Positions 18,082 to 25,324 of a DNA stretch of 64,000 nt are shown here, one piece after another. Each line of letters starts with the position of its first letter. Within the stretch, counting starts at the first letter, position 1. Position numbers and translations under genes: made by a program. The notes beneath the pieces are model-generated. The model worked only from the letters and a program-made list of their open reading frames with translations. It was not told the DNA's origin and ran no database searches. The stretch covers positions 1 through 64,000 of the forward strand of contig NZ_JAUSVO010000005.1 in the NCBI RefSeq assembly GCF_030814715.1. Reading direction: 5' to 3'. Source of the DNA: Kaistia dalseonensis. GTDB taxonomy: Bacteria; Pseudomonadota; Alphaproteobacteria; Rhizobiales; Kaistiaceae.

Positions 18082-20100
18082 CTATCTCCTGGATTGCAGC
18101 CAGCCGCGCTGGCGCTCGATTCGACCCGGGCTCGCCGGACGTTCTTTTTTCGGCGGGGCTGGTTCTGCCTCAGCCTCAGTCTCGGCAGCTTCCGGCGCGA
18201 GATCGTATTCGAGAGCAGCGTCGATCCGGCGCGGCAGTGATTTCCGGACGGCGAGCGCGCCAACAAACGTGTCGAGCGCTTCGTTCCTTTTGCCCTCGGG
18301 CAGGATCCAGATCGCGTAAGGACGGCCGTTGCGCTTGCGGATCTCGCGACGCTCAGACGTCAACTGCTCGAAATAGTCGGGCCCGAAGCCGGGCTCAGTC
18401 GGGAAGTGAATTAGGCCCGGCTTTCGGCCGCCAGGCTCGTCTGGAGCCTCGATCTTGAGGCGCCCATAGATTGCGTCCTTGGCGCCGTCGACGCCGACGG
18501 GCCAGAACAGATCGCCTGTCTTGGCCTTGCGACCCTGGTTCGGCCATATCGGTCGCTGCCCTGCAACGCCCTTGGTCGCGAAGATGCGCCGGCGGCGGCG
18601 AGCCTTGCAGAAGGCGAACACCTGCGTGCCATGGTGGCCGCCCGTATCGATGCCGAAGGCAGCAACGCGAAGGACGCGACCGTCTCGACGCTTGAACTTG
18701 CGCTTCAGCAGCGCATCGAGTTCTTTCCATGCCGCCGGCTGCGCCGGGTCCTGGGAGATGACTTCATAGAGGAACGGCCAGCTTTCCTCATCGGGCCCCC
18801 AGGCCACCAATTGCACCTCAAGCCTGTCACCCTGAACGTCCGCGAACCCGGTGATGACCATCACCTCGTTCGGCAGGTCTTCCGGACCGTAGGTTTCGGC
18901 GCGAGCAATCAAGCCCGAACCGTCGAGTGTCTCGCGCCCGGCCGGCTTCCAGAGCTCGGCCAACGCAGTGTTGACGAACTTCTTCAGCAGCTCCGGGTCG
19001 CCCTGGGCCGTGATGAACTCGGTGACTAGATCGGGAAGCCGATGTCGGATCGACAACAGCTTCGAGATGACGAAGCCGGCATGGCCGCCATAGGCAGGCC
19101 TCTTGCCGCACGTCCTGCAGAGCGACCTGCCCTGCCGATCCCATAGCTCGGGCTCCTGCCGCTCACCGCAGCACGAGAACGCGCGCGTCTGCCGCCATCC
19201 ATGGTCTGGCAGGTCCGCCAGCCCTGTCAGCGCGCGGACCCGGTCGCCTTCGGACCAGAGGACGCCGCACGCTGGGCAGCAGATGCTTGCCGTCTCCGGC
19301 AGGTGCTCGCCCATATCGTCGCGGCTCCACACGACATGGCGCCACTCGATCTGAAACCGGTCGCCGCAATGCGGGCACGGTACGAAGCAGCGACGGCGAT
19401 CGCTGGCACGGTATTCCCGGCCGATGCGCGAAGTGTCCTCGTCGGTCGGCGAACAGGTCCTGACGAATTTCGCCCGACCCAGCGCGTGATAGGTCGATGC
19501 GCGCTCTTCGGCCAGGATAAGCGGATCGCCTTCCTTGCCAGCGGATGGCGGATACTTGTCGATCTCGTCTGAAATGACGATGCGTTTCGGGCGCGACGCC
19601 AGGTCGGTCGGCGAGTTCGAACCGACGAAGTCGATCGACCCTCCCCGATACTCCTTATGCGTGATCGTGCTGCGCGCAGCGTATGGCGCGAGCGCTTCCC
19701 GGATCTCCGGGCTGACCTCGATCGTGGGCTCGATGCGTTCCTTGGAGAACGCTTCGGCAGCGCCCTGGGTCGGCTGCACGAACAGGATCGGACTTGGATC
19801 CTGATGCACGAAATAGAGTGCGACGTTGATATCGAGCTCGGTCTTCACGACCTGAGTGCCCGCCATCACGGTCACAGTATGTGTGTCGGCCTCGGTCACT
19901 GCCGCGAATGGCCCAAAGGCCACCGGCTGCGACCGCGTCTTCCACCGACCTGGTGAAGCCGATGTCTTGGACGAGATATGGCGGTAGGTATCCGCCCACT
20001 CGATCAGGTTGAGCCGCGGCGGCGGCCTAAGTGCGAGCCTCGCCAGCGTCAGGCGAGCCAGAAGCGCCAGCGCTCCCGGCCTGAACATTTCCCTGATCAT
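18082..20100 (-). CDS. Terminase large subunit, lambda gpA family
   Basis: A 672-residue packaging motor with the GpA layout. The ATPase region holds DPSPILFVQPTQGAAEAFSK, the Walker B-like RIVISDEIDKYPPSA and the coupling motif VRTCSPTDEDTSRI. A zinc-binding segment follows (FVPCPHCGDRF, then SICCPACGVLWSEGDR), with a second four-Cys cluster (FSCCGERQEPE, SLCRTCGKR). The C-terminal nuclease domain includes VITGFADVQGDRLEVQLVAW. The ATG at 20100 overlaps the small-subunit gene by 74 bases; a later start near LNLIEWADTYR is possible. Confidence 0.93.
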   Translation of the reverse strand: MIREMFRPGALALLARLTLARLALRPPPRLNLIEWADTYRHISSKTSASPGRWKTRSQPVAFGPFAAVTEADTHTVTVMAGTQVVKTELDINVALYFVHQDPSPILFVQPTQGAAEAFSKERIEPTIEVSPEIREALAPYAARSTITHKEYRGGSIDFVGSNSPTDLASRPKRIVISDEIDKYPPSAGKEGDPLILAEERASTYHALGRAKFVRTCSPTDEDTSRIGREYRASDRRRCFVPCPHCGDRFQIEWRHVVWSRDDMGEHLPETASICCPACGVLWSEGDRVRALTGLADLPDHGWRQTRAFSCCGERQEPELWDRQGRSLCRTCGKRPAYGGHAGFVISKLLSIRHRLPDLVTEFITAQGDPELLKKFVNTALAELWKPAGRETLDGSGLIARAETYGPEDLPNEVMVITGFADVQGDRLEVQLVAWGPDEESWPFLYEVISQDPAQPAAWKELDALLKRKFKRRDGRVLRVAAFGIDTGGHHGTQVFAFCKARRRRRIFATKGVAGQRPIWPNQGRKAKTGDLFWPVGVDGAKDAIYGRLKIEAPDEPGGRKPGLIHFPTEPGFGPDYFEQLTSERREIRKRNGRPYAIWILPEGKRNEALDTFVGALAVRKSLPRRIDAALEYDLAPEAAETEAEAEPAPPKKERPASPGRIERQRGWLQSRR

Positions 20101-20701
20101 GCAGCTCGCTCAAGGCCTCACTGATTTCTTCGAGGATCTTCTCTTCGATCGCCGCGCGATCGAGCCCCACCAGCGAGGCGGCAATCTTGCCCGGGATGCC
20201 CAGGAGGCGTTCGCGGACGATCGTGTATTCGGCCTCGAGCTGCACGGCGACCTCCTCGATCGCGACCAGCGCGCCCTGGCTGACGAGGTATTCCTGCCGT
20301 CGCTTGAGAGCGAGGTAGATCTCTTTGACGCGTGTCGCCTCTGCGAGCTTCCAGCTGCCAGCGGATTCGATCCCCTCATCGGAGATGTCTGCGTCGAGCA
20401 GTCCGTCAGCTTCCTCGTCGACGACGGTGTTACCCTCGGGGGTAACAGCGGCTGTTACCTCCCGGCGGGTCAGCGGCGATTTGTTACCCTCGTCCCGCCT
20501 CGGCGCCTCGGAGGTAACACCGCCGCGATAGGTCGCCGGCCGGTCGTTGAGGGCGGCATCGGTCTTCGCCACATCGACACGACCGCGCGCGTCGAGAACA
20601 AGAATGCCCTTTTGTTTCCAGTCCGTTACAGTCTTTCGCGAGACGCCGCGGTGACGACCATAATCCGCCTGGGAGACGAAGCCCGGATCCTCTGCTGCCA
20701 T
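20027..20701 (-). CDS. Terminase small subunit, Nu1-like
   Basis: A 224-residue DNA-recognition subunit. Residues 8-55 form a winged-helix with FVSQADYGRHRGVSRKTVTD, typical of Nu1-like small terminases that bind the packaging site. The central part (VTSEAPRRDEGNKS, VTAAVTPEGNTVV) is low complexity because the DNA there carries repeated GTTACC hexamers. The second half is a coiled-coil (ATRVKEIYLALKRRQEYLVS, ERLLGIPGKIAASLVGLDRA) as in Nu1 dimerisation and gpA-contact regions. It is placed directly before gpA as in lambda. Confidence 0.82.
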   Translation of the reverse strand: MAAEDPGFVSQADYGRHRGVSRKTVTDWKQKGILVLDARGRVDVAKTDAALNDRPATYRGGVTSEAPRRDEGNKSPLTRREVTAAVTPEGNTVVDEEADGLLDADISDEGIESAGSWKLAEATRVKEIYLALKRRQEYLVSQGALVAIEEVAVQLEAEYTIVRERLLGIPGKIAASLVGLDRAAIEEKILEEISEALSELHDQGNVQAGSAGASGSPDAGEART

Positions 20702-20743
20702 GAAACGAGGCGGGCCCTGATTGTTACCCTGTTACCTGTTACC
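20429..20743. repeat. Cluster of eight GTTACC/GGTAAC hexamers
   Basis: Exact GTTACC (or its complement GGTAAC) occurs at 20429, 20441 (complement), 20454, 20483, 20513 (complement), 20723, 20731 and 20738. Three copies are almost contiguous just upstream of the small terminase start. In a high-GC sequence this density is far above chance. It is likely a protein-binding array, with a cos/pac or operator role most plausible. Confidence 0.8.
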
Positions 20744-20843
20744 CAGTTTTGCGACCCCACGCCGCGTCACGGTCCGCGGTCGCGCGTACCCCGCCCGGGG
20801 GCCGGGGGGCGGAAGGACCCAAGGCCCCCCGGAGGGCTGAGCG

Positions 20844-21101: not shown

Positions 21102-21773
21102 TCATCGGCGCGAGCCGGCGTTGCCGTGAGAACTCCCCAGCCGGCGGCGTCCAAGCGCCGCTTCACGGTCGTATCGGGACTTCTTCCCACGCGTCGCCAT
21201 GGCGTTCTTCAGCGATGCCGAGAAGCCCGCCTTCAGTTCTGCCCGCATGACGCGCTGGAAGCTCTCGAAGAAGGGAACATCTTCAGGCTGGTGGGCTGAT
21301 TGCTTGAAGGAATAGACGAGATGCAGTCGGCCCCCCTTGCCGACAAAAATGCCATGCGGCAGCACGCGCAGCGCCCTGGCGGGCGTCATCGCGCGAATTG
21401 CGTAAGGCGTCTCGCTCTTCCTCACACCCTTGCCGGAGCGCCTCACCGCGCCGGTGGCCGGGATCGCAAGGCGCTTCTTGGCCTGTTTGGTTCCGCCCTT
21501 GGCGTGGAGCGCGAGATGCCCGCGGCCCAAATTGTCGAAGATCGAGACCGACAGGTTGCGCTTGGTCGCCTTATCGATCCTGAGCGATGCGCTGATGAAG
21601 CGCTTGTTCCTCTGCTCGACGTGCCGGGGCCAGACGTCGTCGACGAGAAATGCGCGTGTGGTGAAAGCCGCCGCCGTCAAGGCGTTGGCAAGGGCGAACG
21701 GCAGCTGATCAACAGCACCGCCCAGCCGATCGGCCATCCGCTCGAAGTCGCGAAGATCGAAAGTGAGCGGCAT
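21102..21773 (-). CDS. Phage protein, minor tail/head morphogenesis-like
   Basis: A 223-residue basic protein, starting MPLTFDLRDFERMADRLGGA. It includes LPFALANALTAAAFTTRAFL, a pattern seen in HK97 gp10/minor tail-like proteins, then a strongly basic body (RNKRFISASLRIDKATKRNL, KGGTKQAKKRLAIP). The C-terminal 30 residues are Arg/Lys-rich (ATRGKKSRYDREAALGRRRL). It lies upstream of the terminase small subunit. The family call is tentative; a virion DNA-associated role fits the charge but is inferred. Confidence 0.55.
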   Translation of the reverse strand: MPLTFDLRDFERMADRLGGAVDQLPFALANALTAAAFTTRAFLVDDVWPRHVEQRNKRFISASLRIDKATKRNLSVSIFDNLGRGHLALHAKGGTKQAKKRLAIPATGAVRRSGKGVRKSETPYAIRAMTPARALRVLPHGIFVGKGGRLHLVYSFKQSAHQPEDVPFFESFQRVMRAELKAGFSASLKNAMATRGKKSRYDREAALGRRRLGSSHGNAGSRR

Positions 21774-23765: not shown

Positions 23766-25199
23766 TCAGCTCTCGCAGATCTGCGTTGCAGTAACGACGA
23801 CTTTTGACAGCCATTCGAGCTTGTGCTCGAGCGTCGGCCCTTCGCCATAGCGCGGCCGGTTGAACTTGTGGCCCATCAGGTCGGCCTGCAGGCGATCAGG
23901 CATGTCGGCGGCCGTCAGGCGGTCCTGGAAGCTGTGGCGGATCGAGTAGAGGCTGTGATCTTCGGTCGGCAGCAGGTGTCTTCCCCTCATCACCTTATTC
24001 ACCAGAGCGGACAGCTGCGAGGTGCGGTCCCGGTACTGAGGAAAGCCATCGGGGTTCGCCTGAAACGCTTCCAAAGAAATGCCGATCAACGGGATGTCGC
24101 GCTGCGAATAGGGGGTCTTCAGGCGTCGATAGGCCTTCATCCGGATCTTCACATGCGGAACGGCAGTATCGAGGATGATGTCATCCTTCTCGAGCCCACA
24201 AATCTCACTCGGTCGCATGCCGGTCTCGATCATCGCCATGACGATCCAGCGAGCCTGGTCGTTCATCCCGGCGAGCGTCGCCGGCTTCGCTATGTGGCGG
24301 AGCTGATCGCTCGTGAATGGGGACCGTTGCTTGATTTCCTCGTCAGCCAAACGGAGCTTCTGGAATGGCTTCGAAAGCCCCAACTGCAGGCCGTCATTGA
24401 GGGTGTCGAACAGCTGCGCGAGATGCCCGATATCCTTGTTGGCGCTGTTTGGTGTGTAATCTTCGTCGATCACCCGGTCCTGCCACCACGCCCGCAGGGA
24501 AAGGGCATCGGCTCGGTTCACGTCGATGATCGCCTTGTCGCCGACCAACTCGATCAGATTGTTGACCGCCTTGAGGCGAGGCGCTTTCCAGCGCCGCAAC
24601 TGATCTTCCGATTTCGCGCGGACCTTGTCGCGGGTCAGCTTGTAGAATTCGGCGAGCGCATCCGACAGCTTCAGGGCTGGAGAGGACAGGCCGCCGGCCA
24701 GCGCATCGGCGGCTTGTACTTCGGCCGGCGTCGGCGGTTGGGCATCCATGCCGGCGCCGATGATTTTCATCTGCTCGAGCCGCTGCAGCCGAGCAAGGAT
24801 ATCGTCCAGCTGCGAATTGGCGAGCGCCGGCGCTTCCCGATATTCGAATCCTTCGAGCCGCGCGCGATCGATCGCGCCGCGATAGCGCTCCTTGTCGTCA
24901 TCGGAATCGCCGCGCTTCAAGGCGACCCAATAGGCCTCCAGTTCGCGCTCGACGGCGCCCTTCAGTCGTTCGGCGCGTGCGAGGTCTCTGGTTTCAAGGG
25001 AGATCGCGACCCAGCCACGACGATCGACGTCGGCGAACCTGGCGGGCACCTGCCGCGAATAATACCAAACGCCGTTGCGCTTCTTGAGCCGTCGAGCCAC
25101 CCGAACCCCGCCTGAACCGCTATCTGGTACAGTTGCTGGTACACTCGTGCCCATCTGGCGCTCCGCGTCAATGGCTGATATCGGCCGTTCTGGCTGCAT
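23766..25199 (-). CDS. Tyrosine recombinase/phage integrase (DUF6538 type)
   Basis: A 477-residue site-specific recombinase. N-terminal [20 protein letters not shown] is the DUF6538 arm-binding type. The catalytic domain shows [12 protein letters not shown] (Arg329), [14 protein letters not shown] (Lys361), LYSIRHSF (Arg421, with Tyr418 in the place of the usual His), [12 protein letters not shown] (His444 and nucleophile Tyr451). It starts 36 bases from the tRNA-Ser gene on the same strand and drives integration/excision of the prophage. An ATG at 25154 (MGTSVPATV) is an alternative start. Confidence 0.95.
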
Positions 25200-25234
25200 T
25201 CAGCCGTTTTGAGCGGTCATCGAGGCATCAGAAA

Positions 25235-25324
25235 TGGCGGAGGGAGCGGGATTCGAACCCGCGATACGGTTTCCCGTATACACACTTTCCAGGCGTGCGC
25301 CTTCAACCACTCGGCCACCCCTCC
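25235..25324 (-). tRNA. tRNA-Ser(GGA), prophage attachment site
   Basis: The minus strand reads GGAGGGGTGGCCGAGTGGTT at the 5' end, a long variable arm, the T loop GGTTCGAATCCC and an encoded CCA end (25237-25235). The anticodon GGA is at 25290-25288. The 3' end faces the prophage, whose integrase starts 36 bases away, so the gene is the likely attB. Confidence 0.95.

Follow-up and report, generated by a model that had tools for sequence, protein, structure and literature searches.

A heptamer array in and before a prophage small terminase gene as the predicted cosB of a lambda-type cos site

Introduction

The first 64,000 nucleotides of contig NZ_JAUSVO010000005.1 of Kaistia dalseonensis (hereafter the window, meaning this whole stretch) contain a prophage in which one short word recurs eight times in and just before the gene of the terminase small subunit (TerS), and the question this locus raises is what such an array is for. 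An earlier note, made from the sequence alone, had proposed a cos or pac site bound by the encoded protein, with a repressor operator as the alternative. Here we consider the array to be cosB, the predicted TerS-binding part of a lambda-type cos site of the prophage, with a probability of roughly 0.92. This reading builds on observations of conservation, position, geometry, codon selection and word-helix covariation.

The array and its prophage setting

The terS gene (20027-20701, minus strand, ATG at 20701; PHROG 57, E 7.4e-22) is followed by terL (18082-20100, minus strand), which encodes a large subunit of the lambda GpA type (PF05876, E 2.8e-70; PF20454, E 3.4e-75), and then by genes for a head-tail adaptor and a lambda-family portal. 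A tyrosine integrase gene at 23766-25199 adjoins a tRNA-Ser (region 23766-25324), of which no second copy of 14 bp or longer was found elsewhere in the 64-kb window. Directly upstream of the putative cos site lies a minor-tail-like gene (phrog_1924, 21102-21773), and the paper on Serratia phage vB_SspM_BZS1 (BZS1) describes a minor-tail-like gene just upstream of cos as conserved (PMC7556043). No Pfam family was found for the window TerS, and a profile search of solved structures returned nothing at E up to 1. The AlphaFold2 model, built on a 51-sequence alignment, divides TerS into a winged helix-turn-helix (wHTH, residues 8-53), a linker (about 61-95) and a helical C-terminal part (108-207), with a pLDDT of about 95 in residues 11-50 and below 50 in residues 61-83 and 88-95; the low-confidence linker is presumably disordered. 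A wHTH TerS encoded alongside a GpA-type TerL, as is typical of a lambda-type cos, is thus found here.

The eight GTTACC/GGTAAC hexamers reported by the earlier note at 20429, 20441, 20454, 20483, 20513, 20723, 20731 and 20738 are all present at these coordinates and form a real cluster, but the true unit is one base longer, the heptamer TGTTACC = GGTAACA (hereafter the word). The note had also placed three copies upstream of the start codon, which is correct, although the larger part of the array, five of eight words, is inside the gene. Reading GGTAACA in gene direction, words 1 (20737-20743), 2 (20730-20736) and 3 (20722-20728) on the minus strand are direct repeats with steps of 7 and 8 bp, together occupying 20722-20743, 21-42 bp before the terS start. 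The in-gene words span codons 61-92 in mixed orientation and fall in codons of the low-confidence linker: those in codons 72-74 (20482-20488), 81-83 (20453-20459) and 90-92 (20428-20434) are on the minus strand, and those in codons 61-63 (20513-20519) and 85-87 (20441-20447) are on the plus strand, with GGTAACA on the strand opposite to terS.

The earlier note had suggested comparing the density of the hexamer with that elsewhere, and the window holds 16 GTTACC/GGTAAC hexamers against 4.41 +/- 1.78 in 100 dinucleotide shuffles (largest 9). The heptamer occurs nine times in the 64-kb window, eight of these within 20428-20743. Other 315-bp stretches hold 8-12 copies of GC-rich hexamers such as GCCGCC, so a raw count of eight is ordinary in itself; the unusual point is that the word repeated eight times is otherwise rare. 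Two TGTTACC words separated by 0 to 30 bases occur five times in the 5.18-Mb assembly, four of them at the array, and the reversed control pattern has one match. The sole other same-strand pair at most 30 bases apart lies on contig 1 of the same genome (416797-416829), and no TerS helix was found near it. Among 385 genomes of the class, the 7-bp tandem of words, GGGTAACAGGTAACA, matched twice, in the window and at a locus (L360) where four words precede an ORF that by eye resembles acetylglutamate kinase; no TerS helix was found at that locus.

Conservation across TerS relatives

Starting from an alignment of 20 TerS proteins, we collected 59 loci from named bacterial genomes together with the best 80 of 211 viral relatives. 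Adding 19 earlier loci (window included) brought the total to 158, which was de-duplicated to 104; the first TerS set had been found with a helix pattern, and a shared helix is a selection criterion there. At least three words are present in 95 of the 104 non-redundant loci. The 60.6 kb around terS contain 590 words in total and the remaining 513 kb of these loci contain 30, which makes the density near terS 166 times as high. Fewer than three exact words occur in nine loci, three of which (L231, L275 and L295) have none, L231 using GGTAACC/G. Among the hosts are Methylobacterium, Devosia, Caballeronia, Pseudomonas, Xenorhabdus and Edwardsiella, genera of the alpha-, beta- and gammaproteobacteria. 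Given the shuffles, the rarity of the word in the window and its concentration across related loci, chance clustering is ruled out.

Two loci found as TerL neighbours (L009, L011) and a prophage of the same genus (L089) carry three words at the position seen in the window, before or at the start, and one to three in the gene. Another same-genus prophage, L090, has the helix VVRSTVTVW where the window has VSRKTVTDW and carries none of the words; at the place of the array, three tandem TGAATC(A/G) heptamers were seen by eye, which are not significant in the word count. In the 20-TerS alignment, two different-looking types of C-terminal part stand by eye behind the same wHTH (L113, L200, L203 and L205 versus the rest), which suggests domain swapping.

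cosQ- and cosN-like sequences at fixed distances

A cosQ-like element, GGGTCCTTCC (20811-20820, minus strand), contains GGGTCC and begins 77 bp ahead of the 5' end of word 1; it resembles lambda cosQ in its letters. cosQ is described as a highly conserved 7-bp site (PMC4669245). Counted from GGGTCC, the first word lies 75-79 bp further on in all 76 loci (of 104) that allow the measurement, namely those where a word follows GGGTCC within 70-100 bp, and the value is 77 or 78 in 67 of them. Moreover, the second word follows 7 bp after the first in 58 of the 70 loci with a second word in range. No GGGTCC with a correctly placed word was found in 28 of 104 loci; these include truncated contigs as well as a Methylobacterium group whose upstream region looks different. 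A cosQ-like element at a fixed place upstream of cosN, as expected of a lambda-type cos, is hence a feature of this locus.

The database record of BZS1 starts at the annotated 12-nt left cohesive end, and its 5' overhangs, GCATTGCGCGCC, were obtained by PhageTerm and by PCR across the prophage cos (PMC7556043). Of the nine words in this phage, the first is located at bp 48 counted from the cohesive end, which thus precedes it by 47 bp. From the published BZS1 end and the starts of viral contigs, we predict cosN of the window at 20778-20789 (minus strand), with the 12-nt cohesive end 5'-GTACGCGCGACC located 31 nt past the start of GGGTCC; counted from this predicted left end, word 1 falls at bp 47, in agreement by position with the R sequence near bp 48 of a lambda-type cos. 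The predicted 12-mer is identical in the window and in L090. Eight viral loci from the searches with both TerS families begin within about 100 bp of the TerS match, and five of these contigs (L325, L339, L371, L376 and L416; IMG/VR) begin with the sequence GGCA(A)(T/C)TGCGCGC, their first base preceding by one the position that matches the BZS1 end. The other three do not start at the expected base, L407 beginning a few bases earlier and L295 inside the site, with L401 as the third. The IHF consensus is WATCAANNNNTTR, and its best match in the cos region has three mismatches; with no IHF-like site there, the 'complex' cosB of lambda, which has an IHF site between R3 and R2, is not what we see, and an IHF-bent cosB of the lambda type was rejected on this consensus.

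A scan of DNA only, for three loosely spaced words, returned at least 120 stretches; a search with the window protein (E 1e-4) detected a TerS in 16 and not in 104, and a diagnostic role of the word alone is thereby rejected. When GGGTCC had to be followed by two words 40-150 bp later, 16 of the at least 120 stretches remained; the TerS helix is present in all of these except L134, and among these filtered stretches no clear satellite carrying a window-type cos was found. At two other places returned by the scan (L124:1164-1434 and L150:4751-5018), two groups of about five TGTTACC words face each other with many 11-bp steps; by eye, a small excisionase-like ORF follows the groups in L124 and an HTH-like ORF lies near those in L150, and no TerS was found at either.

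Codon choice in the linker

That the low-complexity segment of the protein reflects selection on the DNA, as the earlier note had suggested, is borne out by codon usage, the codons of Gly-Asn and Val-Thr being nearly fixed in the linker and free elsewhere. GGTAAC encodes 160 of the 161 Gly-Asn pairs in linkers, but only 34 of the 290 found in other long ORFs of these loci; for Val-Thr, GTTACC or GTAACA accounts for 187 of 218 pairs in linkers and 20 of 352 in the other ORFs. In eight loci picked by eye (L113, L200, L203, L250, L251, L261, L272 and L356), the second cluster is outside the gene, and the words lie before terS wholly in six of them and all but one in L200 and L251. Their linkers hold on average 0.12 Gly-Asn or Val-Thr dipeptides, as compared with 3.92 in the 95 other loci, and seven of the eight have none at all (the eighth holds one), which applies to five of the 95 others. 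L242 combines both layouts and was counted in neither group; this contig of Xenorhabdus vietnamensis carries twelve words at 319-697, with a complete second cluster ahead of terS in addition to one inside the gene, and looks like an intermediate between the two layouts. The common 12-bp step between words is also present in non-coding clusters and is thus not only a codon effect. In two further loci (L276 and L277, 2501-2761), TerS ORFs of 86 aa seem to read the linker in another frame (EVT... instead of GN...) with the words kept. The second cluster would then sit in codons of the disordered linker because it is needed as DNA.

Other words and the recognition helix

In a broader sample of TerS proteins next to GpA-type large subunits, 81 ORFs were considered, of which three (L212-L214) came from a TerS search and not from a TerL search; seven were dropped by eye as not wHTH, and the rest were de-duplicated to 56. 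In only 11 of the 56 regions, a 7-mer cluster is stronger than every control window of its own locus, with 0.9 expected. A second TerS family has the word TGCGGACA and mostly the same two-cluster layout. The search for this family gave 57 loci, 53 of them non-redundant, and 43 of the 53 beat all their control windows, 38 with TGCGGACA or a trimmed or shifted form of it as top word and five (L392, L396, L407, L408 and L415) with another. In this family, the first word stands 71-78 bp after GGGTCC in 33 of the 39 loci measured (out of all 57, before de-duplication), and 15, 16 or 44 bp after it in the other six.

The identity of base 5 of TGCGNACA follows residue 4 of the helix segment: it is G in 180 of 180 words where the residue is K or R, A in 9 of 9 where it is T or M, and C in 3 of 5 where it is S; with G or A at this residue, the base is still G (8 of 8 words). 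When loci are counted instead of words, G is the most frequent base at all 34 scorable K loci and at 4 of the 8 other scorable ones; the Fisher tests on this covariation ignore relatedness and are descriptive only. Indirectly, the covariation supports specific recognition of the site by TerS. In the window-type family, relaxed last bases occur in 6 of 11 loci with the helix SRK[A]VT, compared with 6 of 91 with SRK[T]VT.

Alternative explanations

An array of short words within a packaging gene recalls the hexamers of the P1 pac site. A site in and before terS would likewise suit a headful pac, where TerS binds the array, TerL cuts once nearby and later cuts are made by headful as in P22 or P1; the pac of P22, a 22-bp sequence, is also in the TerS gene (PMC9611059). 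Such a site does not predict the cosQ- and cosN-like sequences at fixed distances, the published 12-nt cohesive ends of BZS1, which has the same array (PMC7556043), the five contigs starting at one place, or the GpA type of TerL. Headful packaging would yield permuted genomes with no unique ends, and BZS1 and the five contigs point to unique ends. Because of the fixed distances, the BZS1 ends and five of eight contig starts, we favour cos over pac, which leaves the first half of the earlier 'cos/pac' proposal standing and makes a headful site very unlikely.

An operator, at which TerS or a phage regulator would bind the words to control transcription or translation of terS with no role in packaging, draws on the place of the upstream words, which here stand 21-42 bp ahead of the start codon and in BZS1 come as near to it as 8 bp, and on the resemblance of the TerS wHTH model to BldC and excisionases. 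Five of the eight words are inside the gene, though, the word is not a palindrome, and the words keep a fixed spacing to GGGTCC but a variable one to the start codon; with words almost only at the terS site in related loci (30 in 513 kb elsewhere), the operator named by the earlier note as the alternative is scarcely credible as the sole function, and autoregulation of terS may be a side effect of the site. Whether the repeat could belong to the protein, a low-complexity Gly-Asn/Val-Thr segment with similar codons by happenstance, is a question that arises from the many relatives whose linker is low-complexity. The codon choice nearly fixed in the linker only, the word kept in either orientation and in more than one frame, the near loss of the dipeptides in the eight loci with the cluster outside the gene, and the three words outside the gene here all speak against it; it was rejected on the Gly-Asn/Val-Thr codon counts and its probability is practically negligible.

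Proposed mechanism and significance

Taking the array to be cosB, we infer TerS binding, the oligomeric form, the cut itself and the packaging direction as follows. The winged helix of TerS would recognise GGTAACA, one word each, and several TerS copies would fill both clusters, forming a complex in which the DNA is kept compact or looped. TerL, tethered to TerS, would cut both strands of cosN in a staggered manner, some 46 bp ahead of the first word, and packaging would proceed from the terS end, which is where lambda packaging starts. The second cluster, needed as DNA, would be accommodated in the linker codons between the DNA-binding and the C-terminal parts of the protein.

A more general picture, which we put forward tentatively and at a little short of even odds, is that many phages with GpA-type terminases use an array cosB with its second half in linker codons, movable into or out of the gene as long as its place after cosN is kept; that a multi-copy, partly head-to-tail TerS complex resembling those of BldC and Xis would serve where lambda has an IHF-aided dimer; and that word-helix covariation would make packaging specificity readable base by residue from sequence alone.

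The class of cos site is already known, and what is new is the heptamer array, its place in the disordered linker of TerS and the word-helix code. In the open-licence literature searched, we found no description of a GGTAACA heptamer array at a small terminase gene or cosB, and the main text of the BZS1 paper has no occurrence of GGTAACA (PMC7556043). A 2022 review calls the mechanisms of DNA binding by TerS unclear and controversial (PMC9611059), and for about 130 non-redundant loci from two TerS families (95 + 38) the genome sequence now gives a probable recognition word. In addition, natural helix changes matched by base changes make TerS specificity and the prediction of prophage cos sites testable, and the linker clearly illustrates how a DNA site can shape a disordered part of a protein.

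Comparison with known systems

BZS1 and Citrobacter phage phiNP are published phages of the group to which the window prophage belongs; they share with it the word, the spacing between word and cosQ-like element and the in-gene cluster, and differ in their hosts and in their TerS, which are 29-35% identical over about three quarters of the protein.

The 'simple' cosB of N15 (Feiss et al. 2015, as cited in PMC4669245) has a layout like that predicted for the window, with its critical TerS site at bp 48 from the end (R3, bp 48-59), a further copy about 200 bp distal within terS (the inverted rR2, bp 249-260) and no IHF site between them. N15 has one 12-bp site of another sequence at each place, whereas the window has three and five exact heptamers at the same two places, so that the definition of a single R3 with a single inverted copy does not describe it; the words are direct 7-8 bp repeats upstream and of mixed orientation in the gene, again unlike N15. 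The in-gene site of N15 is reported as not critical (PMC4669245), and the in-gene cluster here may therefore be accessory.

With lambda cosB (R3-I1-R2-R1), the window has in common the order cosQ-cosN-cosB (as predicted here), a wHTH TerS, a GpA-type TerL and repeated TerS sites, CGTTTCC being found three times in the first 330 bp of lambda. The lambda sites lie upstream of nu1 with an IHF site, while the window array runs into terS and contains no IHF-like site.

A fold search with the TerS model ranked BldC-DNA complexes and Xis first (6ama, 4j2n; probability 0.99-1.00; E 0.035 or worse), with no match at E 0.001 and no solved TerS structure among the fold matches listed. BldC binds direct repeats head to tail and distorts the DNA (PMC5859096). 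The TerS model resembles BldC and Xis in the wHTH fold, a match with a weak E-value, and the upstream words are direct repeats; BldC is a regulator, and the in-gene words are not all direct repeats. Overall, the comparison suggests that a head-to-tail TerS complex may form on the 7-bp tandem.
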